Shown one piece after another: positions 834-41,953 of a DNA stretch of 44,365 nucleotides (position 1 is its first letter; each line of letters starts with the position of its first letter). The translations under genes and the position numbers were made by a program. The notes beneath the pieces are model-generated. The model saw nothing but the letters and a program-made list of their open reading frames with translations, ran no database searches and had not been told where the DNA came from. The stretch is from Bacteroidales bacterium (GTDB taxonomy: Bacteria; Bacteroidota; Bacteroidia; Bacteroidales; Muribaculaceae): positions 1 through 44,365 of the forward strand of contig CAJTEX010000026.1 in NCBI GenBank assembly GCA_910575615.1. Reading direction: 5' to 3'.

Positions 834-3410
834 ATGAACAGAGGCTCTCAATGGCGATTATGGGATTTACACTTTCATACGCCATCATCATCATCATACG
901 ACTATAAAGATAAAAGCGTTACTAATCAACAATTGATTGATGGTCTTAAAAACGCCGGAATATCCGTGGTAGCGATTACGGATCATCATTGTATCGACAT
1001 AGAAAGAATTCGTGAATTACAAACTCTTGGAAAAACTGTAGGAATTACGGTCCTCCCGGGAATTGAATTTTGTTCTGAGTTAGGAGGAAGTGAAGCCATC
1101 CATTTCATTGGTATATTTGATGAAAAGTCAAATCTTGAAACAATTTGGACCAAAATACAAGGGCAATGTTCTCTCACACCAGCAGAAATTAATGCCAAAG
1201 GGGTTGAACGAGTTTATTGTCCATTTGTTCCCACTGCGGATTTAATAATTCAACTCGGCGGTATCGTTACAGTGCATGCAGGGAAGAAATCGAATTCAGT
1301 AGAAAGTATTAAAAATAACTTGTTAGTTAAACAGGAACTTAAGCAAGCAATACTTTCCAATTATAGACCATTGTTGGAAGTCGGGAAAACTTCTGATATT
1401 GATGATTATGCATCCAAAGTATTTCCAAATATTGGATTTACATTACCTACCATAATCTGTTCAGATAATCATGATATTAAGAACTATGCAACTACATCTG
1501 GCCTTTGGATTAAAGCTGATACTACTTTTGAAGGATTAAAACAAATCCTTTTTGAGCCAGAAGAAAGAGTAGCTGTCGGAGACACTTGTCCAGACTATAA
1601 ACCGTCATATTTAGTAATTGACCGTGTTGACTTAGATGAACCTGGGTTTTGGAAACAGTCCATCTATTTCAATCAAAATCTGAACACAATCATAGGTGGA
1701 AGATCCACAGGGAAATCAACACTGTTATCCTCAATTGCGTCTAAATTTGATGGGACAGACACGCCTGAGCCATTTATTTTAGAGCATACAGATTCTGTAC
1801 GAGTTATATGGGCTGATGGGAATGAGGATTATCATCGAGACTTAGATTTCCTGCGACAGAGCCATATGTTCGATATCGCAAAGGATATTGAAGCCACCAA
1901 TCGATTGTTACTTAGTATTATTAAGGATAAGGAAGAATGTAGAGTTGCCTTAGACAATTACAATCGCAAAGTAACACAAACTATAGCTGAGACACAACGT
2001 ATTTTAAGTTCTCTCGAAGATTTGTTTGTACAGGGAGTGGAGAAGCAAAATTTAATTAAGCAATTTGGAGATAAAGCAGGAATTGATAGAGAAATAGCGT
2101 TACTAGTTTCACAAAGAAACCAAATTTTAAAAGAGACCAAAATAGATACTACTCAGATTGAACAATTTTCCGCTTATACTGAAAAGATTGCAAAATTTCA
2201 ACTAGAGATAACTGTTGCTGAGCAAGAATATTCAGTTCTCAAAAATTTACGACTGCTACCATTATTAGTCCCCAATAATGGCATATCGTATGTGGGCTTA
2301 AGTGATGAGACCACTCAGCAGTTAACTCTAAAAATTTCTGAGATTTCCGAGAATGCCAATCACCAAATGGTTATGGCAATTGACTTATTAACAACTAATG
2401 TTGAAAAAAGAATTGGACAAGCCAAAGCTGAAATTGATTGCATACAAAAGTCTCAAGAATATATTCAGGCAAAAAAAGTGTGGGACCAGAACAAAAGATT
2501 AATAGAGATTGACAAAAGGATTAATGACGAGCGCATAAAACTTCAAAAGTTCACTCAATTGTCAAATGACTTTTCTCGAATTAAAGAACAGGTTGAGAAT
2601 CTGCGAGTCGAATTAGTTAGTGCAAACAATACCTTCTTATTATCATGTCAGAATGTTTGTGAACTAATGCAACTGTCCCACGAAGGTGTTGAAATCAAAA
2701 GTATCATCGAGCTTGATGAATGCCGATTGCAGGACTTCCTAGACAGTTCTTTAGATCAACGAGGTTCTGAGATGAAAACTTTACTAAGCGAGTTTGTATG
2801 CAAGTATAAAAATGATGATCAAAATTACTTGGTATCAATCATCAAGAAAGCAAATAATTCGCAATTATCGTTTAAAGGAGGAGTCTCTACACATGAATTT
2901 TTAGCAAAATTATTTACGACAAATTGGTATAGACCTCGCATACAATTGTATTATGAAAACGATCGGTTTGATGGCATGTCGCAAGGGAAACAAGCGTTTG
3001 TCATTCTCAAGCTCATATTGGAGTTTAGTCAAAAACAGTGTCCAATTCTTATTGATCAACCAGAAGATAGTCTTGACAATCGAGCAATTTATAATGAATT
3101 AGTCAAGTACATCCGAACAAAAAAGAAACATCGGCAAATTATTCTTGTAACTCATAATCCCAATGTTGTAGTAGGAGCTGACGCTGAGGAAGTAATAGTT
3201 GCCAATCAACAAGGTTCTAAAACACCCAATGAGAATGATATAAAATTCCAATATGTTTATGGAAGTTTAGAAGTTACATCTGAGCATAATCATGATTTAA
3301 CTATTCCATTATTGCATAGAATGGGAATCAGAGAACATGTTTGCGATATACTCGAAGGTGGAAAGGAGGCATTTGCCAATAGAGAGCGTAAGTATGGGTT
3401 TAGACGATAG
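834..3410 (+). CDS. PHP domain + SMC-like ATPase (TrlF-type), predicted phage defence
   Basis: This 858-aa protein has two halves. Residues 1 to about 260 form a PHP-type metal-dependent phosphoesterase: DLHFHTP near the start, ITDHHCID and GIEFC follow, and a histidine-containing SDNHD lies at about 217. From about 270 it is an ABC/SMC-like ATPase: Walker A GGRSTGKST (about 286), a long coiled coil (about 370-650), a signature-like MSQGKQ (about 712), Walker B with ILIDQPEDSLDN (about 739) and a switch-like LVTHNPN. The combination is known as the TrlF family of AAA-like ATPases, often found in defence islands. The likely role is a nucleic-acid-dependent ATPase that licenses a phosphoesterase or nuclease. 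The start ATG at 834 gives MNRGSQWRLWDLHFHTP, which is the expected family start. The gene appears intact. Confidence 0.85.
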   Translation: MNRGSQWRLWDLHFHTPSSSSYDYKDKSVTNQQLIDGLKNAGISVVAITDHHCIDIERIRELQTLGKTVGITVLPGIEFCSELGGSEAIHFIGIFDEKSNLETIWTKIQGQCSLTPAEINAKGVERVYCPFVPTADLIIQLGGIVTVHAGKKSNSVESIKNNLLVKQELKQAILSNYRPLLEVGKTSDIDDYASKVFPNIGFTLPTIICSDNHDIKNYATTSGLWIKADTTFEGLKQILFEPEERVAVGDTCPDYKPSYLVIDRVDLDEPGFWKQSIYFNQNLNTIIGGRSTGKSTLLSSIASKFDGTDTPEPFILEHTDSVRVIWADGNEDYHRDLDFLRQSHMFDIAKDIEATNRLLLSIIKDKEECRVALDNYNRKVTQTIAETQRILSSLEDLFVQGVEKQNLIKQFGDKAGIDREIALLVSQRNQILKETKIDTTQIEQFSAYTEKIAKFQLEITVAEQEYSVLKNLRLLPLLVPNNGISYVGLSDETTQQLTLKISEISENANHQMVMAIDLLTTNVEKRIGQAKAEIDCIQKSQEYIQAKKVWDQNKRLIEIDKRINDERIKLQKFTQLSNDFSRIKEQVENLRVELVSANNTFLLSCQNVCELMQLSHEGVEIKSIIELDECRLQDFLDSSLDQRGSEMKTLLSEFVCKYKNDDQNYLVSIIKKANNSQLSFKGGVSTHEFLAKLFTTNWYRPRIQLYYENDRFDGMSQGKQAFVILKLILEFSQKQCPILIDQPEDSLDNRAIYNELVKYIRTKKKHRQIILVTHNPNVVVGADAEEVIVANQQGSKTPNENDIKFQYVYGSLEVTSEHNHDLTIPLLHRMGIREHVCDILEGGKEAFANRERKYGFRR

Positions 3411-3530
3411 CTTAAAGGTCTGGGCTTCTCCCAATTGACAATGTTCTTGGTTTTTAATTGAATGTATTGAATGTCGAATAAATACGCAAGAACTCCGATG
3501 TGATAATCCAATAGTCTCAGAAATTTGTTG

Positions 3531-18045: not shown

Positions 18046-18951
18046 TCAGTCAATCCCCAAAATTAGTCTGAGCTTATTGGCTTCGGCCTGAAGTTTGCGA
18101 GGATTGGTTGTTTTCAGTTTTTGCAAGTTCTGAATTTTCCATTTTACCGATGGAAAATCAAAGAACATCGAATACGGACTTTCCTCTCGGTTGACCGTCA
18201 GTTCCTCAAAGCCGACAAGGAATCTCTTGTCCGCCTCGGTCATAATGTCGCTGACTCCTTTTATGAGGTTATTCCTTGTCATCTCAAATTCCTCATAACT
18301 AAAAGGAATATCGCTCATCCCTACAAACTGGTTCTCCATTGCCTCCCTTTGGTCTATAAAATTTGGGGAGAAGGATTCATGAATCGGTCTGTCACTACCA
18401 AGGAGACAGAATATGATACCATCCTTGACTGCTGACAGGGGAACATCCATATGCCTCACATCAAATAAATCCCGTGGATGCTGTCGTGAAAGAGCGGCAG
18501 AGATTTTGCCGCCATATAGTTGTGGCAGCGACACAATACGTGCATCCACTTCCATGCCGAACAGACTCTGAGCCTTTTCGCATAAAGAATATAATCTGGC
18601 TTCACCGCACACCAAACCTCTCTTAGTCTGATTGACCTCAATCTTTACCTGACAGCCATGTCTTTCACAGGTTATTTTGCAAATATCAAGACGAGGTATG
18701 ATTCTGATATCACGAAAACTCCGCCGGACTCTGTCGGCAATCCTCATCAATGCCTCATTGATATGGTTCAGACTGCTTGTTCTATCCTCCAGCGGGATGT
18801 ATGTCACATCAATATCGACCGAGAGTCGATTCAGATTTTTCACAAATAGATTTATCGCAGTTCCGCCATGAACGGCAAAGCACTCCTCGTCCGTGACAAA
18901 CGGCAATATTCTTAGTAAAAGCTCCACCTTCTTTCGATACACATCATTCAT
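18046..18951 (-). CDS. abiEii: AbiEii-type nucleotidyltransferase toxin
   Basis: This is a 301-aa protein with the AbiEii/AbiGii signature. FAVHGGTAINLF (about 25-36) is the nucleotidyltransferase G-G motif, and LSVDIDVTYI (about 43-52) carries the catalytic Asp-x-Asp. The rest has SLPQLYGGKISAALSRQHPR and DLFDVRHMD, a conserved block in the family. It is the toxin of a type IV or II toxin-antitoxin system; related enzymes modify tRNA ends with nucleotides. It overlaps the antitoxin gene by 8 bp (18944-18951), so translation is coupled. It appears intact. Confidence 0.88.
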   Translation of the reverse strand: MNDVYRKKVELLLRILPFVTDEECFAVHGGTAINLFVKNLNRLSVDIDVTYIPLEDRTSSLNHINEALMRIADRVRRSFRDIRIIPRLDICKITCERHGCQVKIEVNQTKRGLVCGEARLYSLCEKAQSLFGMEVDARIVSLPQLYGGKISAALSRQHPRDLFDVRHMDVPLSAVKDGIIFCLLGSDRPIHESFSPNFIDQREAMENQFVGMSDIPFSYEEFEMTRNNLIKGVSDIMTEADKRFLVGFEELTVNREESPYSMFFDFPSVKWKIQNLQKLKTTNPRKLQAEANKLRLILGID

Positions 18952-19699
18952 AATCGAAAAGTTCTTTAGGTATTACAATATCATATTTGGCATTCTTCAC
19001 GCCTCTCTTTGAATAGCTTCTCGTGCCTGAGCCAAGAGAAATCTTCGACAAGTCAAGTTTCGTGAACCACCGGTGACCCGCTTTCTCAGCCATATAGAGG
19101 AATATTCTCTTTACTTTAACGGATGTGCAGTTCTCCAACAGTTGTTGAACCAAACCGGATCTCAGAGAAGTGAGCATCTCCATCATATAGTAGGTATCCA
19201 TCAGATTATATTGGGTAGGCGACAGCAGCAGACATTCCATTATTGCTCTCTCAGGTGCGGACACTGTTAATTGTCGACCGTTATAATCCATCTGTTCGAT
19301 ACCTGTGTCTCCGAAAATTTTGGTGGATACCTCAACTATTCGCATATCCAGTTCTACGGAATTAAGCCAATTCGGAAGCCGTGGCCTTATCGGGGAGAAT
19401 ATTACGGCAGAAGGTTTTCCCATAGCGACATAATGGGAGAATCCTTTTAATTCCAAAGCCGAAGCGGCTCCGACATGATACGATAGAGAGCCTTGACATT
19501 GATAGGATGCGAGTATTCCGTAAACAGTCGGGCTATCGCCGACAAAGGTATATACCCCAGTTGCGATACGTTGAAGCCATCCCGATTCGGTGTAATCGGA
19601 AATTTCGCTTCTGCTTAATCCTGATTTTTCAAGCCACGATGTAAGCAGTATTCCATCGTAAGGAGTTTGTTGGCGTATGTTATTTATCTTAGTTCCCAT
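18944..19699 (-). CDS. abiEi: AbiEi-type antitoxin
   Basis: This is a 251-aa protein. The N-terminal winged helix (LLTSWLEKSGLSRSEISDYT, WLQRIATGVYTF) belongs to the AbiEi antitoxin family, followed by the AbiEi C-terminal region with SYHVGAASALELKGFSHYV and SAPERAIMECLLL. It binds its own promoter as a repressor and prevents toxin action. It is first in the minus-strand operon, 20 bp after a -7 box. Confidence 0.88.
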   Translation of the reverse strand: MGTKINNIRQQTPYDGILLTSWLEKSGLSRSEISDYTESGWLQRIATGVYTFVGDSPTVYGILASYQCQGSLSYHVGAASALELKGFSHYVAMGKPSAVIFSPIRPRLPNWLNSVELDMRIVEVSTKIFGDTGIEQMDYNGRQLTVSAPERAIMECLLLSPTQYNLMDTYYMMEMLTSLRSGLVQQLLENCTSVKVKRIFLYMAEKAGHRWFTKLDLSKISLGSGTRSYSKRGVKNAKYDIVIPKELFDYE

Positions 19700-25014: not shown

Positions 25015-26997
25015 ATGACCAGTCAATCAGCCGAAAGGCTCACTACTATAAATCGTCAAGAGAAAGCAGCTCTGATTTGGGCGATTGCCGATAAACTTGT
25101 GGGTGTTTATAAACCTCATGAGTATGGTAACGTCATTCTTCCAATGTGTGTTATCAAACGTTTTGAAGATACACTTGCTCCGACACGCGAAGCGGTATGG
25201 AAGAAGAATGAAGAGTTAGGTTCAATGGATGACGTACTGAAGGGACGTTTTTTAAGGAGAGAGGCCGGTCAACAATTTTATAATACGAGTAAGTTCACTT
25301 TTCAGAATCTTTTAGCAGATCCGGATAATATAGCAGATAATTTCGATGACTATCTCCAGCATTTTTCCGATAATGTAATCGATATTATACGCCGTTTTGA
25401 ATTTGACAAGGAGGTTAGTAAACTTGAAGATAACGGACTACTGTATCTTATTATAAAGGAGTTTAACAGCGACAAGGCATATCTCGGTGCCGACAGAATA
25501 TCGTCGGTGGATATGGGATATATTTTCGAGGAACTGGTGCGCAAATTCTCGGAGAGTTATGATGAACAGGCTGGAGCGCACTTCACCGCCCGCGACATCA
25601 TCTATGTAATGTCAGACATCCTCATTGCCGGCGACGAGAAACGTCTCGCAGAGGAAGGTGTGAGCGTTGACATCTATGATATGGCTATGGGAACATCCCA
25701 GATGTTGGGTTGTCTTACCGAACGCCTTCTACAACTCGACCCAGACGCCGATGTTACCTCGCACGGACAGGAACTTAACAACCAGACTTTCGCTATTGCC
25801 AAGGCTGATACCCTTATCAAGGGAGGCAATGCCGACAATATGCGGCAGGGTGACACTCTCGGCAATGACCAGTTCCGTGGTTACGAATTTGATTACATCA
25901 TTTCAAATCCTCCATTCGGTATCGAGTGGAAAACATCAAAGGCTCAGGTTGAGAAAGAGACCGGAGAAGGCGAGCGTTTCGCCGCCGGACTCCCGGCCAT
26001 CGGAGATGGACAGATGCTTTTTACTCTCAACGGAATTGCTAAATTGAAGGAGAACGGCCGTATGGCGATTATCCAAAATGGGTCGCCCCTTTTCAAGGGA
26101 GATGCCGGAGGCGGTGAAAGCAACATTCGTGGTTTCCTTCTCGAAAACGACTGGCTTGACGCTATAATACAATTACCCAACGACCTTTTTTACAACACCG
26201 GTATAGCCACATACATCTGGATTATCTCAAAGAACAAGACTTCTGAGCGCATCAGCAAAGTGCAGCTTATAGATGCGAGCCAGTGCTTTGAAAAACGTCG
26301 CAAAAGCCTCGGCAACAAACGTGTCGAGATTACCGACCGTTGCCGGGAACTGATTGTCCAAGCATACAAGAGCTTCGCCAATCAGGAATTTGAGAATGGC
26401 GACATCCGTGTGGAAAGCCGCATCAAGGATACGGATGACTTTAAGTATCGCAAAGTATTCACCTACCGTCCCCTGCGGTTGGAATACTCCGGCATACAGT
26501 TTGACGAAGATCGGGCAAAAGGCATGAAGACACCCGACGTTGCGCTTCTGAAGGAAGTTGCCGAAGCCTGCACCAACTGCACAGAACCTATGAGCGACTT
26601 TGAATTTTTCTCTCACCTGAAAAAAGAGAAAGTAAAGATTGCACAGGGAAAGGTTGCCATGATCCGCAATTTCTACGGCAAGCGTAATCCCTCGATGCCG
26701 GAGGCATACGTTAAACCAACGGACAAGTCGAGTGGTTGTGCTCCCGACCCCGAACTGAAAGACAGCGAGATTATTCCTTGGAAGACTAATCCTGACGGCT
26801 TCCTTGAAGCGAATGTGCGGCCATACGCTCCTGACTTCTGGTACGATGAATCCGAAACCAAAATCGGCTACGAGATACCCTTCACCCGAGAGTTTTACCG
26901 CTACACCGCGCCGCGCCCGGCAGCTGAAATCTTCGAGCATTTCCGCGCCCTCGGCGAACGCGAACAGGAGTTGATGACCAAAATCTTAGGAAAGTGA
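25015..26997 (+). CDS. hsdM: Type I restriction-modification DNA methyltransferase subunit
   Basis: This is a 660-aa protein. The HsdM N-terminal domain is at about 10-160 and the N6-adenine methyltransferase domain at about 170-440. Motif IV is NPPFGIEW (about 300), clearly intact. Motif I reads YDMAMGTSQML (about 220) where most HsdM proteins have DPxCGTGG, so the loop carries a serine in place of glycine. The target recognition gate region GGESNIRGFLLENDWLDAII is present. The C-terminal 200 residues are longer than the minimal family. Together with HsdS it should methylate adenine in the recognition site. It overlaps hsdS by one base (TGATG). Confidence 0.93.
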   Translation: MTSQSAERLTTINRQEKAALIWAIADKLVGVYKPHEYGNVILPMCVIKRFEDTLAPTREAVWKKNEELGSMDDVLKGRFLRREAGQQFYNTSKFTFQNLLADPDNIADNFDDYLQHFSDNVIDIIRRFEFDKEVSKLEDNGLLYLIIKEFNSDKAYLGADRISSVDMGYIFEELVRKFSESYDEQAGAHFTARDIIYVMSDILIAGDEKRLAEEGVSVDIYDMAMGTSQMLGCLTERLLQLDPDADVTSHGQELNNQTFAIAKADTLIKGGNADNMRQGDTLGNDQFRGYEFDYIISNPPFGIEWKTSKAQVEKETGEGERFAAGLPAIGDGQMLFTLNGIAKLKENGRMAIIQNGSPLFKGDAGGGESNIRGFLLENDWLDAIIQLPNDLFYNTGIATYIWIISKNKTSERISKVQLIDASQCFEKRRKSLGNKRVEITDRCRELIVQAYKSFANQEFENGDIRVESRIKDTDDFKYRKVFTYRPLRLEYSGIQFDEDRAKGMKTPDVALLKEVAEACTNCTEPMSDFEFFSHLKKEKVKIAQGKVAMIRNFYGKRNPSMPEAYVKPTDKSSGCAPDPELKDSEIIPWKTNPDGFLEANVRPYAPDFWYDESETKIGYEIPFTREFYRYTAPRPAAEIFEHFRALGEREQELMTKILGK

Positions 26998-28295
26998 TGG
27001 AACAGAAACTCAAAGACAGCGGCATCCCTTGGATTGGAATAATTCCGGAACATTGGGAGATACTGCGAAATAAGAATGTGTTAGTGGAACTTAAAGAAGT
27101 TGTAGGTGAGGATACATCCTTCCCATTACTTTCTCTATCATTGAGTGGAGTAAAACTCAGAGATTTAGATGGTGGTGGCAAATTTCCGGCTGAATTTACG
27201 ACTTATAAGAAGGTTCAGCCACATAACTTGGTTTTTTGTCTATTTGATATGGATGAAACACCGAGAACAATAGGTCTTTCAAAACATAGGGGAATGATTA
27301 CAGGGGCATACAATGTTTATAAGGTGTGCTCTGAGATAGTTACGCCAGATTGGGTATATTATTTTTACCTTTCCATAGATCAACAGAAGGCACTAAAACC
27401 ATATTATTCAGGTTTGCGCAAGGTTGTTAAACCGGAGACATTTACTAAAATACATCTTCCTGTTCCACCGCTTGCCGAACAGGAGGCGATAGCGGCATAT
27501 TTGGATAAGAAATGTGGTGAGATTGACGAGCTGATTGAAGTCGAGCAACAAATGATTTCAGAACTCGAAGCCTATCGTCAATCGGTCATCACCGAAGCCG
27601 TCACCCACGGACTTGACTCTGATATGGCACAAAAGCAGTCTTCCATCCGAGGTGTTGATAAAATCCCTACAAATTGGAGTGAAGTAAACTTATTGAAAGC
27701 AATATATCTTCGTGCCAGATTAGGATGGCGAGGTCTTAAAGCAGAGGAGTATGTAGATGAGGGGTTCCCATTCCTTTCAGCATTCAATATAGTCAATAAT
27801 CAGTTGATATGGAAAAATCTAAACTTTATCAACAAACAACGTTATGATGAATCCCCTGAGATAAAACTCTCATTGCATGACATTCTTATAGTCAAAGATG
27901 GTGCCGGAATAGGGAAATGTGCAAGAGTAGAAGATATGCCATTAGGCGAATCTACAGTAAACTCTTCACTTGGAGTAATTACTGTGTCAGTGAAACTCTA
28001 TTATTCATATCTCTTTTACTTTTTCCTTAGTTCCCCATTTCAGGATAATGTTCTTTTTCTAAAAAATGGAATGGGTGTACCCCATCTAACCCAGGAGAAT
28101 TTGAAGTCAGTTAGAATCCCTCTCCCCCCAGTTGAAGAGCAAAAAGCCATTGCTGAATATCTTGACGCTAAATGCACCGAGATTGATGGGCTTATCAAGG
28201 TCAAGCAAGAGAAAATAGAAACCCTTAAACAATACCGCCAGAGCCTCATTTTTGAAGCCGTCACCGGTAAAACTTTAATAACAAACAACGCATGA
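26997..28295 (+). CDS. hsdS: Type I restriction-modification specificity subunit
   Basis: This is a 432-aa protein with two target recognition domains. The first half begins MEQKLKDSGIPWIGIIPEHW and ends LPVPPLAEQEAIAAYLDKKC, followed by the central coiled coil. The second half has IPTNWSEVNLLKAIYLRARL and ends RIPLPPVEEQKAIAEYLDAK, with the second coiled coil after it. The two conserved repeats are typical of HsdS. The recognition sequence cannot be told from this. It overlaps the next gene as ATGA (28292-28295). Confidence 0.93.
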   Translation: MEQKLKDSGIPWIGIIPEHWEILRNKNVLVELKEVVGEDTSFPLLSLSLSGVKLRDLDGGGKFPAEFTTYKKVQPHNLVFCLFDMDETPRTIGLSKHRGMITGAYNVYKVCSEIVTPDWVYYFYLSIDQQKALKPYYSGLRKVVKPETFTKIHLPVPPLAEQEAIAAYLDKKCGEIDELIEVEQQMISELEAYRQSVITEAVTHGLDSDMAQKQSSIRGVDKIPTNWSEVNLLKAIYLRARLGWRGLKAEEYVDEGFPFLSAFNIVNNQLIWKNLNFINKQRYDESPEIKLSLHDILIVKDGAGIGKCARVEDMPLGESTVNSSLGVITVSVKLYYSYLFYFFLSSPFQDNVLFLKNGMGVPHLTQENLKSVRIPLPPVEEQKAIAEYLDAKCTEIDGLIKVKQEKIETLKQYRQSLIFEAVTGKTLITNNA

Positions 28296-30139
28296 GTTTA
28301 GTATGGTTATACGGGTCTCGCGAAGATCCTTCTTTGGTTGAAGAAATGCGGAGTAGTTTAGCCACGGACTTTCCGGACATTAAAGTCGGGAATATTACCC
28401 ATTGGGGTAGTGGCGGAAGAAACTACCAATACTTCATTCAACTGACGGCTGAAAATTTGCCCAAAGGCTCTCACTATGAATATACGACAGATGGCTATCA
28501 GGGCTATTTTGAATTTCACCTTGAGGCAGAGCCTGATGATGAAAATTTCAAGCGTCTGAAAAAAATTGGCATAAGGCTCACACATGCCTTGGAGAATACG
28601 CCTGTGACTTGTGAACAGCGTGGTAGATTGCCATTTGGCAACTTCTACTATACTTATGGCGGTATAAGGTCAATTAAGGATTTTGTTGACCGATTCAGAG
28701 AGTTATACAAAATCATTACCCCTAACCTTAATGCCATCGACAAAAAGGTAGTAGAGGTAACTCTTCAAGGTAATCCACCCAAAAGCGAAGAGCCTCTAAA
28801 AGGCCCAATAGATAATAATCAGGAAGTAACTTCCGAAATTATGCCTCTCAAAAAGGTCATGGGGCTGAGATTATGGTTGCCAGACTACCAGAGAGATTAT
28901 TGCTGGGAAGAAAGGAACATCACAGACCTTTGGAAAAACCTTTTGAAAATTCAAAAGGATAAGCCGTTTCATCTTGGGACTCTAATCCTTCATGCAAACA
29001 CTGAGAAAGGTGTCTATGACATTATCGACGGTCAACAACGCCTTGTAACACTTTCCCTGATTCTCTGGGGACTTGGTTACGATGGCAATCTGCCTCTTTT
29101 GAGTGCAGAATATACGTTGCCCGAGTCAATACGAAATATTGGTAACAGTAAGTTTATCATCAAGTCTTTGATTGAGAGGTCAGAAAACAGGGAAGATTTA
29201 CTTGACAACATATTGAAAGAAGTGTCATTCGCTGTTCTTGTTGTGAATGAATCCAATCTTGACTTGGCTTATACCTTCTTCAATAACCAGAACTCTAAAG
29301 GCGTTCCTTTGTCGGATTTCGACCTTTTGAAAGCCCACCATTTACGGTTCATTCCGGGAAAAGAAGGTGGACAGGCTGAACACATGGCAAAGAAGTGGAA
29401 TACCGTTTCCTCTTTGCCTCCCTCATACGGAGAAGCCAACTCACTGGCACGAGTTTTGGGCACACACTTATATCGTCTTCGCAAATGGATGAGAAGAAAA
29501 GACTCTGATGAGAACTCCTACCGATATGTTCAGCACGAATTTCAAGCAGCCCCGATAATTCCGGACATACCGCCATTCGGCGAACAGTTCCGCTTTTATG
29601 AAAAGATACAAGGCGGCACGCACTTCTTCGTATATGTAGAGACTTTTATTCAAAGATATGAACAGTTCTGTAAATTGGAACCGGTCAAACTTCTAAGGAA
29701 AAATCTATCTGAAAGTCGCTACGAGACCTTTGCGGATTCAATCGAGACACTTCTGTTTGGCTATTATCTGAAATTTGGCAATCAATACATCGCAGAAGCA
29801 CTGTTCTGTATTGCCCGACTGATGGCTCTGTATCGCTATAACTCCTATGCAGTGGCATCAAGTGGCGTTGGTGTCAGAGAATTTGCCAATAATAGTGAGA
29901 TTATTCTCATGATTGATCAGGCTACTTCACCCACATTCTTTTTGGCGGAAGTTCTGGGCAAATTCGATAGTTACACAAATGGAGATTATCCCATACGCAC
30001 AGGTCTTGATCTTGATGAAGCCCGCGGTGTCCGTTGGGGTATATATACTGCATTGAGGAATATTTTCAGAGATCCCAAACTGGAAATAACAGACTCGTAC
30101 ATCCTTCATAAAATCTTTGAGGAATATGGAAGAAAATAA
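28292..30139 (+). CDS. DUF262 (GmrS/ParB-like) protein embedded in the R-M operon
   Basis: This is a 615-aa protein. Residues 1-160 form an N-terminal domain that I do not recognise (MSLVWLYGSREDPSLVEEM...). From about 185 it is a DUF262 domain: LWLPDYQRDYCW (about 196) and the ParB-like DIIDGQQRLVTL (about 243-254), which is the nucleotide-binding or hydrolysing DGQQR motif of GmrS. The C-terminal 250 residues are helical, and no H-x-x-P HNH motif of DUF1524 is seen. GmrSD cuts glucosylated or hydroxymethylated DNA. Here the domain is between hsdS and the second DUF262 gene, and translation is coupled on both sides. Confidence 0.8.
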   Translation: MSLVWLYGSREDPSLVEEMRSSLATDFPDIKVGNITHWGSGGRNYQYFIQLTAENLPKGSHYEYTTDGYQGYFEFHLEAEPDDENFKRLKKIGIRLTHALENTPVTCEQRGRLPFGNFYYTYGGIRSIKDFVDRFRELYKIITPNLNAIDKKVVEVTLQGNPPKSEEPLKGPIDNNQEVTSEIMPLKKVMGLRLWLPDYQRDYCWEERNITDLWKNLLKIQKDKPFHLGTLILHANTEKGVYDIIDGQQRLVTLSLILWGLGYDGNLPLLSAEYTLPESIRNIGNSKFIIKSLIERSENREDLLDNILKEVSFAVLVVNESNLDLAYTFFNNQNSKGVPLSDFDLLKAHHLRFIPGKEGGQAEHMAKKWNTVSSLPPSYGEANSLARVLGTHLYRLRKWMRRKDSDENSYRYVQHEFQAAPIIPDIPPFGEQFRFYEKIQGGTHFFVYVETFIQRYEQFCKLEPVKLLRKNLSESRYETFADSIETLLFGYYLKFGNQYIAEALFCIARLMALYRYNSYAVASSGVGVREFANNSEIILMIDQATSPTFFLAEVLGKFDSYTNGDYPIRTGLDLDEARGVRWGIYTALRNIFRDPKLEITDSYILHKIFEEYGRK

Positions 30140-32042
30140 ATCATACTGCATAGTTCCTGCTGACGTTGCGAATGAAGAGAAGCACATGCTCTTTCGCATC
30201 CCGCTGTATCAGCGTCTGTTTGCTTGGTCGCCATATGAGGTAAATCAACTTATGGAGGACTTGAAAAATCATTTCAAGAAGCATGAAAAGGACTCCAAAA
30301 AGTATTACCTCGGTATGCTTACTGTTGTCAAACAAGACGGCAGACTTGATTTGATAGACGGACAGCAGCGCATGACTGTACTTTCGCTGTTGTCAATTGG
30401 CTTCATGCGTGCTCTTGAACACGTTGATAAAGCGGTGTCAGACAAGTGGAAGAAAGTTCTTTGCGATGAATCCGGAAAGCCACGACTTTTCTTCAATGGT
30501 CGCAGTGATGACTATGCATATCTACAGGCATTATCCAATGGCGAGAAAACCACATACGTCAATCAAAAGATGAGTGATGGCCTTGAAACAATCTCCGATT
30601 TTCTTACAGAAAATTTCAAAGATGAGACGAAACAACTGATTAAATTTGTCAATCAGGTATATGACCGCATGGCATATTTTATCACGGAATTGCCTGAACA
30701 TTATGTGGAGAATCCGTCGTCTCTGAACGAATATTTTGAGGCAATGAACTCCAGTGGCAAAGCATTGGAGCAGCATGAGATTCTTAAAGTAGCCTTGTTG
30801 CAAGACCAACCGGATTCAAAGAAGATTGCTTTTACAAAGCTCTGGAATAGAATATCTAACTTCAGTATGCCATTGCGACCCAAAGTTGAAGTTCGTAAGG
30901 ATCCAAGTCAAAACATTGGCGTTGAAAGACAAAACAACCTATACAAGGAGTATATCGAAGCATGTCGTAACGAAAATTATGACTGGCTTATCGACGAACT
31001 TTGTGTCTCAGCGGAAAATGAAGCGGCTCAATCCATTGCAAGCATCGGTATTGAAAAGAAAGAAGATAACAATGCCGACCGTTTTGATAAAGAGGATGCA
31101 ATCCTGTCTTTTGCCAAGTTCCTACTGATAGTATTGGCTATTCATAACGGTGATGATGCCATAGCCCGACAAAATACATCAAAGCTTCTACAGACGTTCA
31201 GGGAGAATCCGCCTAAAGATCTGGAAAAATTCTACCATCAGCTTCTGCAATATCGTCTTATTCTGGATATGTATGTTGTCAGAATCGAGAACACTGCTGG
31301 CGGCGGTGTCCACACTCTGATAGCACGAAACGAAGACAATGAAGATCTAAAGAAGAAAGCTAATGAAAGAGTAAGACAGTATCAGGCAATGCTTGATGTT
31401 TCAACTGAACTGCATATATGGCTGCTCCCGTTGCTGAAATCACTTGCAGAGAAAAACCTTACTCAGTCTGAAATTCTACGTAATCTTATCGAAACGGATA
31501 AGAAAAATTCTCATCAGACCTGTCCCGGTCTGGATGAACTGGTATTCAGTAATCGCAACCGTTCCCGATATTGGTTCTGGCGACTTGATTACGCTATTTG
31601 GGAGAAACAACTGCTTGCCAAGGAAGAAGAAGATGTTTTTGCTGAATTTGGATTTGGAGAAAAGGCTGTTGACAAACAGGCAATTCTTGAATATGAATTT
31701 AGGGAGAACCGATCCATTGAGCATCTGCATCCCCAAGATGAGACAAAACAACCTGATAAATGGGAGTGGGATGAGATTAACCGATTCGGTAATCTGGCTA
31801 TGATTTCTTCAAGTTTTAACTCTGAACAGAGAAACTGGCTCGTTGATTCCAAGCTGGAAAATATAAAGCCTCAGGTTGATAATAAGAGTTTGCAGAGTCT
31901 TAAACTGTACTTCATGTATCTACAAGCCAAGAAGGATGGCGGTTGGAAGCAGGGAGAGAATGGCTCTATGCAGACACATGAAAGAAACATCTATAAGTTG
32001 CTTGAAGAAAGCATGCTACAATACGAAGATGGACAACAGTAA
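30126..32042 (+). CDS. DUF262-DUF1524 (GmrSD-like) nuclease
   Basis: From ATG 30126 this is a 638-aa protein; a TTG nine bases upstream is less likely. Residues 20-280 are DUF262, with FRIPLYQRLFAW (about 24) and LIDGQQRMTVL (about 76). The C-terminus is a DUF1524 HNH-type nuclease: RSIEHLHPQDE (about 529-539, with the catalytic His) and RFGNLAMISSSFNSEQRN (about 555-572, with the metal-binding Asn). This is the GmrSD architecture of type IV, modification-dependent restriction. It overlaps both neighbours (28292 gene stop and hsdR start), so all are one operon. Confidence 0.85.
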   Translation: MEENKSYCIVPADVANEEKHMLFRIPLYQRLFAWSPYEVNQLMEDLKNHFKKHEKDSKKYYLGMLTVVKQDGRLDLIDGQQRMTVLSLLSIGFMRALEHVDKAVSDKWKKVLCDESGKPRLFFNGRSDDYAYLQALSNGEKTTYVNQKMSDGLETISDFLTENFKDETKQLIKFVNQVYDRMAYFITELPEHYVENPSSLNEYFEAMNSSGKALEQHEILKVALLQDQPDSKKIAFTKLWNRISNFSMPLRPKVEVRKDPSQNIGVERQNNLYKEYIEACRNENYDWLIDELCVSAENEAAQSIASIGIEKKEDNNADRFDKEDAILSFAKFLLIVLAIHNGDDAIARQNTSKLLQTFRENPPKDLEKFYHQLLQYRLILDMYVVRIENTAGGGVHTLIARNEDNEDLKKKANERVRQYQAMLDVSTELHIWLLPLLKSLAEKNLTQSEILRNLIETDKKNSHQTCPGLDELVFSNRNRSRYWFWRLDYAIWEKQLLAKEEEDVFAEFGFGEKAVDKQAILEYEFRENRSIEHLHPQDETKQPDKWEWDEINRFGNLAMISSSFNSEQRNWLVDSKLENIKPQVDNKSLQSLKLYFMYLQAKKDGGWKQGENGSMQTHERNIYKLLEESMLQYEDGQQ

Positions 32043-35677: not shown

Positions 35678-36229
35678 ATGTCTAATCCAAGCGTTACAAC
35701 CAATCGGCTCCATTTTGAAGACCTCGAACCAAGACGTTTTGAGGAATTGGGGTATCAATTACTGCATCGCCTTTATAAATGGGAGCGTCTTGACCATACC
35801 GGTGTTTGTGGTAATGATAGAGGCATAGATATGTATGGTATCACGAAAGATGGAGTTCATTGTTATTGCCAGGTCAAGAGATACCAGAAATTATCTCAGT
35901 CTGACATAAGGGATATATATTCCGCAATAGTCAACAACAATAAGGACGGTATTGAGCCAAATTCCAAATTCATCTTGATATGCGCATGTGATTTAAGCAA
36001 ACAAGTCCTTGATGTAGCCTATGATGAAGGATACAAACATGGTTTCAAATCCGTAGAAATCATTTCCCGAACAAAATTAGAGAGCTTATTATATAATGGT
36101 CACAGGACATTATTAAGAACTTTCTTTGGCGCCGGGTCTAAAAGACAAGAGACCAATGCTGCAAAAATCAGGCGACAAGCTCGTGCCAAAAAAAATGTTA
36201 TAAATTATTGCTGTCCGGTAAAACTTTGA
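35678..36229 (+). pseudogene. Mrr-like restriction endonuclease, N-terminal half (split by MITE 1)
   Basis: The ORF encodes 183 residues. Residues 10-100 are an Mrr_cat-like PD-(D/E)XK fold: LEPRRFEELGYQLLHRLYKW, GNDRGIDMYGI (the Asp) and HCYCQVKRYQKL (Q-x-K). The last nine codons (after Asn 176) come from the MITE terminus. Removing the element and one target copy joins Asn 176 (36203-36205) directly to codon 36435, in frame with the next ORF. So the native protein was about 358 aa and this is its catalytic half. It follows hsdR by 4 bp. Confidence 0.8.
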
Positions 36230-36425
36230 CATGATAGGAAATGGACTATTTTTATCTCATACAGCATGAAACAAACTCGTATAGATGTCTTTTAAGGGCT
36301 TTTTGATGCTTAATGCTACCAATTTCACATCGCCTCAAATGACAAGCCCTTTTTCGTAAAACAGGTGTAACTTATTATATTTGTAGAGAATATATGATTT
36401 TGTCTTTTTTTACCGGACAGCAATA
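36206..36425 (+). mobile_element. 220-bp MITE, copy 1
   Basis: The element has 18-bp terminal inverted repeats TATTGCTGTCCGGTAAAA and is flanked by a 9-bp target duplication GTTATAAAT (36197-36205 and 36426-36434). It has no coding capacity. It is identical to the copy at 39614-39833 in reverse orientation except for one base that I can see (near 36270). A TATATTTG near its right end (36376-36383) fits a -7 box pointing at the gene downstream. No transposase with these ends is in the window. Confidence 0.93.
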
Positions 36426-39069: not shown

Positions 39070-39585
39070 TCATTTGATTGGGTCGGTGCAGTATTGACGG
39101 CGGCCGCAGCGTGTGCAGTGTTCACCTCGCCAAACGCTATCAAACTGCTCACAGGCGGCATCTATCAGAGGCGCTTCATCGGTTAGTATTCCGGCCTCAA
39201 AGTTGCGGCGGTTATTGCTCTTCATGCCTATTTCCGCACCTGTCAGATTGGCGGAGCCTATGTAGGCTGACTCGAAATCGAATATAAGCATCTTAAAATG
39301 GACTCGCGGGCATAGCATCCGTTCCAGTCCGGTTTTTAGAATCGGGTATCGGTCAAAATCCTCACGGAAAGCCGGACCCGGTTCTTTTGCATGGATAAGG
39401 CGCACTTCTACTCCTCTTTTGAGAAGTTTGGCAAGGACAGCAAGAAATGGCTCCGATGAATTGCCGGCTTTGACGTGAAGGTCTTTAATGTCGGCAGTAC
39501 CTATCCAGAGCGACTTTCTCACGGATGCCACCTTTGCCACGACCTTATCGTAATGGTCTATGCCAGAGATAAACTCAACAGACAT
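39070..39585 (-). CDS. Phospholipase D-like protein with one HKD motif
   Basis: This is a 171-aa protein. The catalytic motif is VHFKMLIFDFESAYIGSANL (about 103-122): H-x-K-x4-D followed by the GSANL segment. Only one HKD is present, so it would act as a dimer, as single-domain PLD nucleases and phospholipases do. The C-terminus has four cysteines in CTRCGRRQYC, a possible zinc site. The gene is on the minus strand just downstream of the FtsZ-like operon and separated from it by MITE 2. It may be part of that operon (the membrane-active member) or independent. Confidence 0.8.
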   Translation of the reverse strand: MSVEFISGIDHYDKVVAKVASVRKSLWIGTADIKDLHVKAGNSSEPFLAVLAKLLKRGVEVRLIHAKEPGPAFREDFDRYPILKTGLERMLCPRVHFKMLIFDFESAYIGSANLTGAEIGMKSNNRRNFEAGILTDEAPLIDAACEQFDSVWRGEHCTRCGRRQYCTDPIK

Positions 39586-39613
39586 AATAAAGTCATGTTT
39601 TTATAAATTATTA

Positions 39614-39833
39614 TATTGCTGTCCGGTAAAAAAAGACAAAATCATATATTCTCTACAAATATAATAAGTTACACCTGTTTTACGAAAAAGGGCTTGTCAT
39701 TTGAGGCGATGTGAAATTGGTAGCATTAAGCATCAAAAAGCCCTTAAAAGACATCTATACGAGTCTGTTTCATGCTGTATGAGATAAAAATAGTCCATTT
39801 CCTATCATGTCAAAGTTTTACCGGACAGCAATA
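39614..39833 (-). mobile_element. 220-bp MITE, copy 2 (inverted)
   Basis: The ends are TATTGCTGTCCGGTAAAA in inverted orientation, and it is flanked by the 9-bp target duplication AAATTATTA (39605-39613, 39834-39842). It is the reverse complement of MITE 1 with one base different. It replaces the last codons of the membrane protein gene at 39818-40051. Confidence 0.93.
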
Positions 39834-40051
39834 AAATTATTATGGTCAACAAAATCATCCGATGCCTTGATCAAATCTTTCAGCACTGGAAGCATATACT
39901 TGTGCTGGAGTGCGAATCCGATTACGGCACCGATATTTGCTTTAATCAAGGCTGAATGAGGTGGCCCGATAAAGCAGGCTATGCCGCCTAATATTCCGGG
40001 AAGTATGGCAAATTTTAGTAGTGCCAACTGTTTCTGAATAACTTTATCCAT
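39818..40051 (-). CDS. Small membrane protein, C-terminus altered by MITE 2
   Basis: This 77-aa ORF has hydrophobic stretches FAILPGILGGIACFIGP (about 14-30) and NIGAVIGFALQHKYML (about 39-54), with a basic N-terminus. Two helices probably form a hairpin in the membrane. The last codons (FIAVR) come from the MITE; before insertion the frame would have ended HNNL then a stop, so only a few residues changed. It overlaps the FtsZ-like gene by 8 bp (40044-40051) and is translationally coupled to it. A small membrane partner next to tubulin-like genes suits a membrane anchor. Confidence 0.7.
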   Translation of the reverse strand: MDKVIQKQLALLKFAILPGILGGIACFIGPPHSALIKANIGAVIGFALQHKYMLPVLKDLIKASDDFVDHNNFIAVR

Positions 40052-40781
40052 TACTCAGTTCCTTTCCAGCGGCAAGTATCGTGACTTTTATATCTTCATC
40101 GTTTATGCTCTCATCGGGATATACAGCCCAAATAACATAAATGCTTTCAGGTAGTTCACTAAAGAAATCAGTCAATGCAGTCATTTCTTGCATAACCAAT
40201 GGCTGTTTCCCTACCTTATTGAAATACAGAAAAATTGAAAGCCGTTCAATCTTATTGATCAAGGATGAAGTCAATGAACTTTTGATGCAACCTATCGCTT
40301 CTGCCACACGCTCTTTGTCACAGCGTGTTACAGACTTAATGAGAAAATGCTTCGCGTCAGTTAGAGTGGTTTGTAAATCGTTAAAGTCATAGGCAATCTT
40401 GCCTTGCGTTACTATCGGCTGGAGGATTGCTTTTATCAAGTCAGGGTACTCAGTATAAGAGGCTTCTGCCACCACACTGTCATAACAATCCAAATCGGCA
40501 TTGTCAAGCAAGCCGAGGGTCAGGACTCCGGCATCATGGAATGTTTTGGCAATTCCGTTAGCAATGTCTTCATTGTCTCTCGCAACAATGATTACCATCT
40601 TATCCTCATCGGTCGGAACACACTCAAAAGGATGGGTTAATACCGTGGCGGACACACAATCGTATCCGTATGAATTTACGGCCTCAATAATTCCTTTCGC
40701 AGCCTCCCCAATACCCAGTACGCGAAAGCTGACTGGTAGATTTGAGTGGGCATATCGGTCAAATAATTCTGACTCATTCAT
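40044..40781 (-). CDS. FtsZ-like protein with degenerate GTPase domain and intact T7-type region
   Basis: This is a 245-aa protein. The N-terminus keeps FtsZ-like strands: FRVLGIGEAAKGIIEAV (about 19-35) and MVIIVARDNEDIANGIAKTF then GVLTLGLL (about 62-92). The GGGTGTG signature is missing: the position reads RDNEDIA. The middle contains IAYDFNDLQTTLTDA (about 129-143), which resembles the NVDFADVRTVM T7 loop with the catalytic Asp (132, 135). The C-terminus ends IKVTILAAGKELSNG, like the FtsZ ending (I/L)xVTVVATG. It cannot bind GTP in the normal way but can supply the T7 loop. It has its own -7 box and is coupled to the membrane-protein gene. Confidence 0.75.
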   Translation of the reverse strand: MNESELFDRYAHSNLPVSFRVLGIGEAAKGIIEAVNSYGYDCVSATVLTHPFECVPTDEDKMVIIVARDNEDIANGIAKTFHDAGVLTLGLLDNADLDCYDSVVAEASYTEYPDLIKAILQPIVTQGKIAYDFNDLQTTLTDAKHFLIKSVTRCDKERVAEAIGCIKSSLTSSLINKIERLSIFLYFNKVGKQPLVMQEMTALTDFFSELPESIYVIWAVYPDESINDEDIKVTILAAGKELSNG

Positions 40782-40858
40782 CTTATTGTGATTATAGTTT
40801 ATCAGAAATCGAATGCAGTGATAGCTATGGGTCGGCTATCACTGCATAGAATTGCCGG

Positions 40859-40866
40859 CAAAGTTA
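40859..40866 (-). promoter_or_regulatory. -7 box (TAACTTTG) before the degenerate FtsZ-like gene
   Basis: CAAAGTTA on the plus strand reads TAACTTTG on the minus strand. It overlaps the last codon of the 72-aa gene. Confidence 0.5.
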
Positions 40867-41082
40867 GAGTTTCTCTACTTTGAGTTCGTTGCCGTTCATG
40901 TAGCCAACGGGGAAATCCACGTTGTATTTCATCTTGAACTGACGCTGAATCTCAGCCTTTACGGTTGAGTTGGCAAAAGGAAGAGTGCTCCCATTGAAAG
41001 ATACCTCGGCTGTCATGCCGGCCTCGAGTCGCTTGCCTCCGCTGAGCAGGAGACATTTAGTGGTTACTTTGAAGAGTGCCAT
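40864..41082 (-). CDS. Small protein of the FtsZ-like operon (DUF6140-like)
   Basis: This 72-aa protein reads MALFKVTTKCLLLSGGKRLE, then AGMTAEVSFNGSTLPFANST and NVDFPVGYMNGNELKVEKL. The composition suggests an all-beta fold with no membrane segment. It resembles short Bacteroidota proteins called DUF6140, which start MALFRVTAK-like; that is from memory. It lies between the two FtsZ-like genes and has its own -7 box at 41109. It could be a polymer-binding or regulatory subunit. Confidence 0.6.
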   Translation of the reverse strand: MALFKVTTKCLLLSGGKRLEAGMTAEVSFNGSTLPFANSTVKAEIQRQFKMKYNVDFPVGYMNGNELKVEKL

Positions 41083-41108
41083 ATCTAATATTTTTGATGG
41101 TTACTCTG

Positions 41109-41116
41109 CAAAGGTA
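41109..41116 (-). promoter_or_regulatory. -7 box (TACCTTTG) before the 72-aa gene
   Basis: CAAAGGTA on the plus strand reads TACCTTTG on the minus strand, 26 bp before the start. Confidence 0.5.
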
Positions 41117-41164
41117 GGACAGTGGTGTATCAGATTTGGTGACAGAATCTGATTTTGTCCATGT

Positions 41165-41848
41165 TTAATACAGATTAAAGATGTTTTTTCGCTCCTCTTC
41201 CGAGATTCCGCGATAGGTATCACTGCGTATCCAAACTAATGGCAGGTCTTTTACGCGATATTCTTCAGGGATATATAACTGAAGCATAGCGTTTTTAGGA
41301 TCATTGGCGAGTTCTCCCAAAGAACGTGCGCTCATTGCAGATTTAACAGTTTCAATCAATGGCTTGTCTATGTCGTTTAGGCCAAGCGATTCAACCTCTT
41401 TCAGTCTGTCGTTGTTCTGCTGGATGGCTAAATTTGATGAGACAATCAACTGCATTCGGGCGTTCATTGCTCTTTTATTTTTCTGCTCACCTTCAAATTC
41501 GTAGGGCATTGAGAAGAATGAGCATACAAATTTACCCTTCAAGATTGCTTCTAAAGCAATCAGAGGCGCATATTTGCTGCCGGTCATTCCGCCGAGAGTG
41601 GCGCAGATTATCACTGAATCCGATGCTTTTTCGACAATTTCCTCTACGAAAGTCGTATCACCGGATTTTACTTTTCCGCGTAACTTTTCGAGAAGGAAAG
41701 ACTCCGCCCCATTGACCGAATTCTTTTCTAAGTCCTTCTCGTTGGTATCGCACACTATTAACCGGGCATCCGGGAATAATCCGGCGGCGATATGGTCGGC
41801 GGCGAGATTATATCCGCCGTTTCCGACAGCAATGATTGTTTCGTTCAT
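41165..41848 (-). CDS. FtsZ-like GTPase-domain protein
   Basis: This is a 227-aa protein, shorter than FtsZ (about 350-400). AVGNGGYNLAADHI (residues 7-20) is the T1 loop (GxGGxxxN/A). CDTNEKDL is the T3 position. ATLGGMTGSKYAPLIALEAI (83-102) corresponds to GGGTGTG followed by the APxIA helix. FFSMPYEFEG (111-120) then KRAMNARMQL and NNDRLKE (145-151) match the FtsZ block PFxFEG..R...A and NDxL. GLNDIDKPLIETV at 156-168 could be a degenerate T7 loop. The C-terminal domain is missing. It should bind GTP and form a filament with its partner at 40044. A -7 box lies upstream at 41892. Confidence 0.82.
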   Translation of the reverse strand: MNETIIAVGNGGYNLAADHIAAGLFPDARLIVCDTNEKDLEKNSVNGAESFLLEKLRGKVKSGDTTFVEEIVEKASDSVIICATLGGMTGSKYAPLIALEAILKGKFVCSFFSMPYEFEGEQKNKRAMNARMQLIVSSNLAIQQNNDRLKEVESLGLNDIDKPLIETVKSAMSARSLGELANDPKNAMLQLYIPEEYRVKDLPLVWIRSDTYRGISEEERKNIFNLY

Positions 41849-41891
41849 ATTCTTATTGATATTAAAGTACGTAATTATATACTATTTGCAC

Positions 41892-41899
41892 CAAATATA
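41892..41899 (-). promoter_or_regulatory. -7 box (TATATTTG) for the FtsZ-like operon
   Basis: CAAATATA on the plus strand reads TATATTTG on the minus strand, 43 bp before the start. Confidence 0.5.
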
Positions 41900-41953
41900 A
41901 AAATCATTTTCAAAAACTCCAAACAGCATCATAGTTATCTCAATAAAAATAAC

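Follow-up and report, generated by a model that had tools for sequence, protein, structure and literature searches.

The 44,365-nucleotide contig CAJTEX010000026.1 (assembly GCA_910575615.1) of a Bacteroidales bacterium in the family Muribaculaceae, analysed at full length and called the window below, carries two genes, A and B, whose predicted products divide the parts of one FtsZ between them. Profile comparisons indicate that FtsZ is present in Muribaculaceae as four kinds of piece: A and a second family, A′, which correspond to the N-terminal GTPase domain (N-domain), and B and B′, which bring the T7 loop and the C-terminal domain (C-domain). As a tentative proposal, FtsZ would have been dismantled, probably more than once, at the boundary between N-domain and T7 loop, and the one-faced pieces would act in trans on host FtsZ, as end caps or as T7-donating activators of its GTPase. 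A reading of the window alone, here the original prediction, had already suggested the division. It recurs in genomes G046, G003, G204 and G169 and at locus L073, and hhalign places A on FtsZ columns 24-188 and B on columns 17-331. The features of the two genes, by window position, are as follows.

41165..41848, minus strand: gene A, 227 amino acids (aa), FtsZ GTPase (N) domain through loop T6, without T7 loop or C-domain
41807..41824, minus strand: loop T1 of A, GNGGYN, residues 9-14, by sequence alignment
41573..41593, minus strand: loop T4 of A, GGMTGSK, residues 86-92, corresponding to FtsZ GGGTGTG with the third and seventh glycine substituted
41489..41506, minus strand: loop T5 of A, PYEFEG, residues 115-120, by alignment
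41402..41416, minus strand: loop T6 of A, NNDRL, residues 145-149, by alignment
40044..40781, minus strand: gene B, 245 aa, an FtsZ whose GTP loops are erased and whose T7 loop and C-domain are kept
40560..40580, minus strand: RDNEDIA of B, residues 68-74, in the place of the GGGTGTG loop
40374..40403, minus strand: T7 (synergy) loop of B, GKIAYDFNDL, residues 127-136, with D135 the second, near-invariant aspartate

Complementary losses in four families of FtsZ piece

By alignment, A is the GTPase domain of FtsZ, stopping before the T7 loop. It matches the Pfam Tubulin (Tubulin/FtsZ GTPase) model at 1.7e-10 and TIGR00065 ftsZ over model positions 100-178 only (33.4 bits; the curated cut-off of 295.2 is not reached), and hhalign aligns it to FtsZ with a probability of 98.7% (E 1.6e-16). 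Across A, B and A′ this probability is 98.7-99.2%, indicating profile homology to the FtsZ/tubulin superfamily. The motifs singled out by the original prediction, GNGGYN, GGMTGSK, PYEFEG and NNDRL in A and RDNEDIA and DFNDL in B, are all present and recur in homologues; G9, G11, G12 and N14 of GNGGYN are invariant in 5/5 aligned A proteins. A also ends early, as had been described, without T7 loop or C-domain, and carries beyond T6 about 75 residues of unclear origin.

We compared conservation across 45 FtsZ, 33 B rows longer than 195 aa (without L186), 6 full A and 14 A′ sequences, leaving out the A fragment, L145, the host FtsZ L091 and short A′ pieces. All full A (6/6) and A′ (14/14) keep T1 glycines 35 and 38, T4 glycine 122, P151 and E155 of T5 and N182 of T6. 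In the same sequences the T3 glycines (FtsZ columns 83 and 87) are absent, T4 columns 124 and 128 are substituted and T7 columns 220-226 are gaps. The view that A keeps the GTP-binding features thus survives for the T1, T5 and T6 motifs and falls for T3 and the two T4 columns; because of these losses, GTP binding by A is only putative.

A′, a second GTPase-only family of about 173 aa, is detected by Pfam (42 bits), and its member at L056 aligns to positions 97-200 of the NCBI ftsZ model. At L183 (G446; 2366-3421) A′ is fused in frame to a C-terminal stretch that by eye resembles a GNAT acetyltransferase. No PADLOC model fits A or B; A has a single weak match, to a type II restriction enzyme (5e-4).

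B is, as had been supposed, homologous to FtsZ by profile comparison (hhalign probability 99.0%, E 7e-18; B 12-246 against FtsZ 17-331). It has no Pfam match up to E 1 and reaches 25.1 bits on TIGR00065 (9.6e-6; cut-off 295.2), over positions 199-325. Judged by its alignment, B spans the whole of FtsZ apart from deletions, with the nucleotide site erased, and its end coincides with the end of the FtsZ C-domain. We considered B as a mere C-terminal half and ruled this out, since hhalign covers nearly all of B on FtsZ; the clean C-terminal half, on the same kind of comparison, is B′. A complete GTP site (T1/T3/T4/T5/T6) is missing in both A and B: A lacks the T3 glycines and T4 glycines 124 and 128, and B lacks most T1 glycines, T3 and T4.

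The T7 loop of B is conserved at one position above all. In a 35-row B alignment (one 77-aa B fragment dropped; L186 is a B′-type row), the second T7 aspartate is retained in 34/35 rows, the first in 29/35 and the T7 asparagine in 5/35. The second aspartate (D228) is kept in 97% of the 33 B rows used for the conservation comparison; among 66 FtsZ-invariant columns, L143 is the only one kept more often in B, and two glycines are level with it. Where the genome also has A or A′ it is found in 12/12 B rows, and otherwise in 22/23 rows, three of which (L055, L067, L083) come from records with unchecked genomes. Since this aspartate is kept alike with and without A or A′, A cannot be the sole target of the T7 loop of B.

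B′ is shorter, at about 134 aa, and consists of T7 loop and C-domain only, with the second T7 aspartate in 16/16, the first in 13/16 and the asparagine in 6/16 members of the set. Three of the four B′ proteins scanned match the NCBI ftsZ model (199-322, 203-322 and 201-327) and the fourth has no match; none of the four (0/4) exceeds a Pfam cut-off. A B′ profile scores a mean of 71 bits on family FtsZ against a mean of 34 on the B set, so that B and B′ look like separate derivations. Locus L221 (G288; 1071-1937) holds a 288-aa frame with a B′ domain at its end and an unrelated start that is HAD-phosphatase-like by eye.

Ratios of nonsynonymous to synonymous substitution rates (dN/dS) are 0.10-0.16 in A pairs (>60% identity) and 0.10-0.33 in B pairs (>66% identity), which shows purifying selection on both genes; together with the recurrence of the A and B motifs in homologues, these low ratios argue that the pattern is not due to chance. 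Broken copies do occur, with B frameshifted at L060, A reduced to 96 aa at L073/L128 and stops within the matched stretch at some loci, as expected if the pieces were ordinary decay products of a duplicated FtsZ with no FtsZ-related function, serving for example as scaffolds for island proteins. Such an account is improbable given dN/dS of 0.10-0.33, the conserved second T7 aspartate and a B gene order that stays similar among relatives at 27-88% identity to the window B.

A profile of the B C-domain scores 67-96 bits on 35 host-family FtsZ, 38-54 on 9 from the same order and 27-45 on 25 from the wider class or phylum, and its best score outside the host family is 53.6 bits (34 other Bacteroidota FtsZ). 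In a 66-row C-domain tree (22 B rows and 44 of 69 FtsZ; unrooted, with bootstrap not settled and some long branches), all B rows fall into a single group (100/99) adjoining family FtsZ, and the branch between these two together and the other FtsZ has 100/100 support. A B′ profile likewise scores 55-81 bits on family FtsZ, 38-56 on the order and 25-43 on others, with slight overlap, and an A′ profile 49-67, 43-64 and 27-47; an A profile gave no such family, order, others ranking of FtsZ scores. From the C-domain scores and tree we conclude that B derives from the FtsZ of the hosts' own family, and from the score order that B′ and A′ probably do so as well. A normal FtsZ over the TIGR00065 cut-off is present in the window's own genome.

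Occurrence, gene runs and island setting

We surveyed 397 host-family genomes for A, A′ and B. B-type proteins, sorted by frame length and coverage, occur in at least 36, including a fragment (G241) and a broken copy (G003); A occurs in 7 (one a 96-aa fragment) and A′ in 17 (one being L145). Five genomes have both A and B (G000, G003, G046, G204, G379) and eight have both A′ and B (G015, G022, G179, G237, G241, G303, G306, G436). With cut-offs of 1e-20 for the A hits and 1e-25 for the A′ hits, A is missing from 31/36 B genomes (at least 36 in all) and both A and A′ from 23/36, and A stands without B in 2/7 A genomes (G001, G038). B′ was found in 15/237 genomes (>50 bits, frame <300 aa; the count excludes G221, which scored 46.7 bits with one stop, and another G161 match that lies in a 674-aa frame). 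The A′ list shares four genomes with these 15 (G161, G169, G241, G268), the A list none.

These counts contradict the expectation that the two genes always occur together, and regular occurrence of one gene without the other is a result that the original prediction had itself named as refuting it. The original prediction had further proposed an obligate alternating polymer like that of alpha/beta-tubulin, for which A, without T7 loop and C-domain, offers no canonical surface at the second interface. With the bottom face missing from A, and B often found without A or A′, we reject the obligate polymer; since A/A′ and B/B′ have one face each, A and B can meet in no more than a single canonical contact and cannot build a canonical alternating filament.

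A dedicated A-B or A′-B′ pair is another reading: A would hold the nucleotide and B would give the T7 aspartate, forming a composite GTPase site that works as a one-shot switch or heterodimer and not as a filament. The complementary losses fit such a pair, as does the enrichment of B among A genomes (5/7) and A′ genomes (8/17) against 36/397 (at least 36) overall (p 8.6e-5 and 2.8e-5), which shared island cargo could also cause. It would further account for the gene runs, namely A-S-B-M in the window and G046, A-DUF6557-B-M in G003 (where B is frameshifted) and G204, and A′-M′-B′ in G169; L073 has A fragment-FtsK-B. The G169 run, with an M-like gene at 22 bits, is the cleaner split: against our FtsZ profile its A′ matches 105-202 (77 bits) and, weakly, 22-50 (8 bits), and its B′ matches 206-324 (43 bits), dividing FtsZ at about 202/206. 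The NCBI ftsZ model positions given above for A′ and B′ put the division at the same place. A single chain at L145 (G306; 439-1422), of 327 aa, joins an A′-type N-domain to what is by eye a degenerate, putative FtsZ C-domain and is a possible fused form of the split pair. Its C-part, however, scores 4.2 bits on the FtsZ profile and has no match to the B C-domain profile. The L145 gene lies beside an ADP-ribosylglycohydrolase and an FtsK-like gene. Set against the frequent absence of A, or of A and A′, from B genomes, the B′ genomes on neither list, A without B in G001 and G038 and the T3 and T4 losses of A, a dedicated pair seems doubtful, and we rank it as the second rival to action on host FtsZ.

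B as a phage or plasmid gene was rejected on searches of plasmid records, a phage collection and viral contigs. B had no match in 72,556 plasmid records and three in a phage collection, where H1 is a 5.9-kilobase unverified record with the same island and the other two match the C-half of B only, at 29-30% identity. Viral contigs gave 0 matches with single-sequence B and 0 in one A profile scan, and a B profile scan found one contig, L083. The viral-filed records L055 (MT837932.1) and L083 (an IMG/VR contig) carry island parts with B and may be mislabelled bacterial DNA or island-bearing prophages. An A′ profile matched 0/198 genomes across the order, mostly from other families, in a scan without a known positive that therefore shows little; in 59 same-order genomes of other families B-type proteins were absent, matches falling only in long frames. 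A wider genome-contig scan with a narrow pattern gave 16 loci, one of which (L067) is labelled Oscillospiraceae and is possibly mis-binned.

The usual order around B is RtcB, a WYL regulator, a DnaQ-like exonuclease, optionally A, optionally FtsK, S or DUF6557, then B and M, followed in some loci by MoxR and a vWA-like gene and in several by a PLD protein. MoxR and a vWA-like gene lie beside B-M at L056 and L057 and MoxR alone at L069, L070, L189 and L122, some of these being cut by contig or stretch ends. Over their Pfam cut-offs are WYL, RtcB, RNase_T, bpMoxR (9e-56, L056), Lactamase_B_2, Metallophos and FtsK alpha/motor/gamma; the vWA and DUF6557 matches fall under theirs. The WYL, RtcB, bpMoxR, FtsK and RNase_T genes bear out the suggested defence setting, as does the island phosphoesterase, matched by PADLOC PDC-S10 at 6.6e-71, where we take PDC to mean phage-defence candidate. 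Matches of PDC-S48 to the exonuclease (9.5e-29) and of SspH to FtsK (1.6e-50) may reflect common domains only.

In many loci A′ sits on a divergent arm beside a beta-lactamase-fold protein and the phosphoesterase, whose gene overlaps A′ by 1-4 bases in 11/17 A′ loci (L177 and L180 look like copies). At L056 (19233-19826) and in relatives it is the start of the PDC-S10 phosphoesterase gene that A′ often overlaps, and A′ may belong to the PDC-S10 candidate system. B′ loci have WYL, phosphoesterase, RtcB, FtsK or ADP-ribosylglycohydrolase genes nearby in 9/16 cases and lack them in 7/16. Island-borne FtsK-like proteins occur at L059 (8161-9795; alpha, motor and gamma, with no membrane domain by Pfam), L056, L066, L073 and L187, and would be a second division protein carried as cargo beside the FtsZ pieces.

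In the window the minus-strand run of four genes, A-S-B-M, has no adjoining MoxR or vWA, and the RtcB-WYL-DnaQ part lies on a separate contig of the same genome, C42. This contig ends 300 bases past DnaQ; the sequence there is similar to the border of the window's insertion sequence (IS) element, and the contig holds no A, A′, B, B′, M or S. The remaining features of the locus are these.

41892..41923, minus strand: promoter-like site TTTG-N20-TATATTTG, upstream of gene A
40864..41082, minus strand: gene S, 72 aa, with weak DUF6140 similarity (23.4 bits, under the Pfam cut-off of 27)
39818..40051, minus strand: gene M, 77 aa, hydrophobic, with a possible membrane segment or hairpin
39614..39834, no strand: 221-base repeat with a copy at 100% identity on contig C42
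39070..39585, minus strand: PLD-like protein, 171 aa, beyond the repeat

The promoter-like site, TTTG-N20-TATATTTG, which we take to be the Bacteroidota promoter consensus, lies 43 bases from the start codon of A, and the window has 7 exact matches against 1.09 expected from shuffles. Gene S directly precedes B also at L055, L056, L061 and L067. The start of M overlaps the end of B by 8 bases, an overlap that recurs in relatives, and M hydropathy reaches 2.11 over 19 residues. The proposed coupling of a small membrane protein to B fits this overlap and hydropathy; membrane attachment is unsure, since the hydropathy of the M′ of G169 peaks at 1.26 over 19 residues, lower than that of M. The PLD-like gene had been named as a perhaps related partner. 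It neighbours A or B in several relatives, but in the window the 221-base repeat, which overlaps the last codons of M, parts it from M. Repeats of 220-230 bases occur in three places of the genome (window 39614-39834 and 36195-36425; C42 (L197) 2736-2956). Other defence-type genes lie at window positions 18046-19699 and 25015-32042 and comprise AbiEii/AbiEi, an N6-methylase with an HsdM N-domain and two GmrSD-type proteins.

Proposed action on host FtsZ

Filaments of FtsZ are built by contact of the GTP face of one subunit with the T7 face of its neighbour; SulA and MciZ bind the FtsZ C-domain, for example near T7, and plus-end and minus-end FtsZ mutants have been tried as cappers (PMC5624674). 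In G068 (3 contigs) and G084 (99% complete), two of the 23 B genomes without A and A′, host FtsZ is the only significant match of A and A′ queries; G234, a genome in one contig, carries B′ and appears in neither the A nor the A′ list. Host FtsZ is the only FtsZ-type GTPase detected in these three genomes, and from C-type pieces with an intact catalytic aspartate in such a setting we infer action on host FtsZ. That the pieces work on it through one retained face, as optional cargo of a WYL-regulated conflict island, is the explanation we favour and quite plausible, though we stop short of calling it probable.

A and B would then be detached FtsZ pieces, not expected to polymerise alone, with A/A′ retaining the GTP-side face and B/B′ the T7/C-domain face. 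On activation of the island, presumably under WYL control, the pieces would dock on host FtsZ through the retained face. B would dock on the exposed GTP side of an FtsZ monomer or filament end, donating its T7 aspartate and perhaps triggering GTP hydrolysis in FtsZ, and A on the exposed T7 side. Lacking a second face, they would leave the filament capped, and division would be stopped or re-timed while RNA repair and other island enzymes act, much as SulA serves as a division stop in the SOS response. M may tether B at the membrane, replacing the missing tail, and A and B together could also build one composite GTPase site.

Several points weigh against this proposal. The GTP-side face of A may be altered, given the lost T3 glycines and two T4 glycines. 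B may be unable to stimulate hydrolysis, given that the T7 asparagine is mostly lost (kept in 5/35 rows) and the first aspartate is lacking or not shown in 6/35. The M′ of G169 has the lower hydropathy given above, the association of A with B and the A′-M′-B′ operon favour a dedicated pair, and many loci come from draft genomes, so that some partners were possibly missed. Conservation of the T7 face, moreover, fits bait as well as effector, since FtsZ inhibitors bind that face.

Bait is the main rival. B/B′ would show the synergy-loop face, and A/A′ the GTP face, to phage proteins that attack FtsZ, a role as integrated decoy that we think rather unlikely. The island (WYL regulator, MoxR-vWA, phosphoesterase) would then sense the captured inhibitor, or the capture would simply spare host FtsZ. 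A precedent comes from phage T7: its Gp0.4 is predicted to bind FtsZ at the synergy-loop surface, and the complex of Gp0.4 with FtsZ activates the defence protein CapRelEbc (PMC13423816). B keeps the synergy loop, is nearest to the host family's own FtsZ and does without A, and optional mix-and-match pieces in an island with a PADLOC candidate would suit a bait repertoire. Why a bait should keep the catalytic aspartate in almost every lineage, or be coupled to a small hydrophobic protein, is not obvious. It also counts against bait that we know of no FtsZ inhibitor from phages of these hosts, none having been sought. Action on host FtsZ, bait and a dedicated A-B site could coexist.

Relation to known systems and meaning

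The pieces resemble FtsZ (TIGR00065) in aligning to its columns 24-188 (A) and 17-331 (B) and in the T7 loop and C-domain of B. They differ from it in their scores (33.4 and 25.1 bits against the cut-off of 295.2) and in that neither has both faces, the GTP site and the T7 catalytic aspartates never meeting in the same chain among A, A′ and B. The C-terminal tail of FtsZ, which binds FtsA, is absent from the pieces. SulA, MciZ and Gp0.4 are small proteins not made of FtsZ; A and B share with them the proposed blocking of one FtsZ face, whereas A and B are FtsZ itself in pieces.

Among the effectors of MoxR-vWA conflict systems are rare FtsZ/tubulin and FtsK domains (Kaur et al. 2020, PMC7159879). 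Like them, the islands carry division domains as optional cargo, some relatives having B-M-MoxR and two a vWA-like gene; unlike them, the vWA match at L056 is under the Pfam cut-off and the window's A-S-B-M has no adjoining MoxR or vWA. The excerpts examined from that paper describe no split FtsZ and predict its FtsK domains to be inactive, whereas alpha, motor and gamma models all match the FtsK of L059, which may be active. Like A and B, FtsZl1 and FtsZl2 are FtsZ-like proteins that occur in addition to a normal FtsZ (Makarova and Koonin 2010, PMC2875224). FtsZl1 is mostly long, with an N-terminal FtsZ domain bearing GGGTG(S/T)G, a coiled coil and a helical C-domain, and is linked to vWA genes, whereas A has 227 aa and GGMTGSK and B 245 aa without the motif. 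FtsZl2 has T1, T4, T6 and T7 in one chain with about 300 further residues, a combination that neither A nor B has. Complementary FtsZ pieces are described in neither paper as excerpted. CapRelEbc resembles the islands, if the pieces are bait, in making FtsZ part of phage sensing, and differs in using host FtsZ with a fused toxin-antitoxin and no FtsZ copy (PMC13423816). In the open-access literature searched, and in excerpts of PMC9871819 on FtsZ/tubulin evolution, we found no description of a native split FtsZ; the sole 'split FtsZ' encountered is an in-silico chain division for modelling (PMC12747378).

If the proposal is true, these would be, within the literature searched, the first native split FtsZ and the first FtsZ regulators made from FtsZ, a 'SulA made from FtsZ'. 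In FtsZ the active site forms between two subunits, and here nature would supply both halves as separate proteins, natural reagents for testing at which filament end each half acts as a cap and whether GTP hydrolysis is accelerated by the T7 aspartate on its own. For Muribaculaceae, the pieces would link a protein of cell division with defence islands, shortly after a part of FtsZ in phage sensing was demonstrated (PMC13423816).

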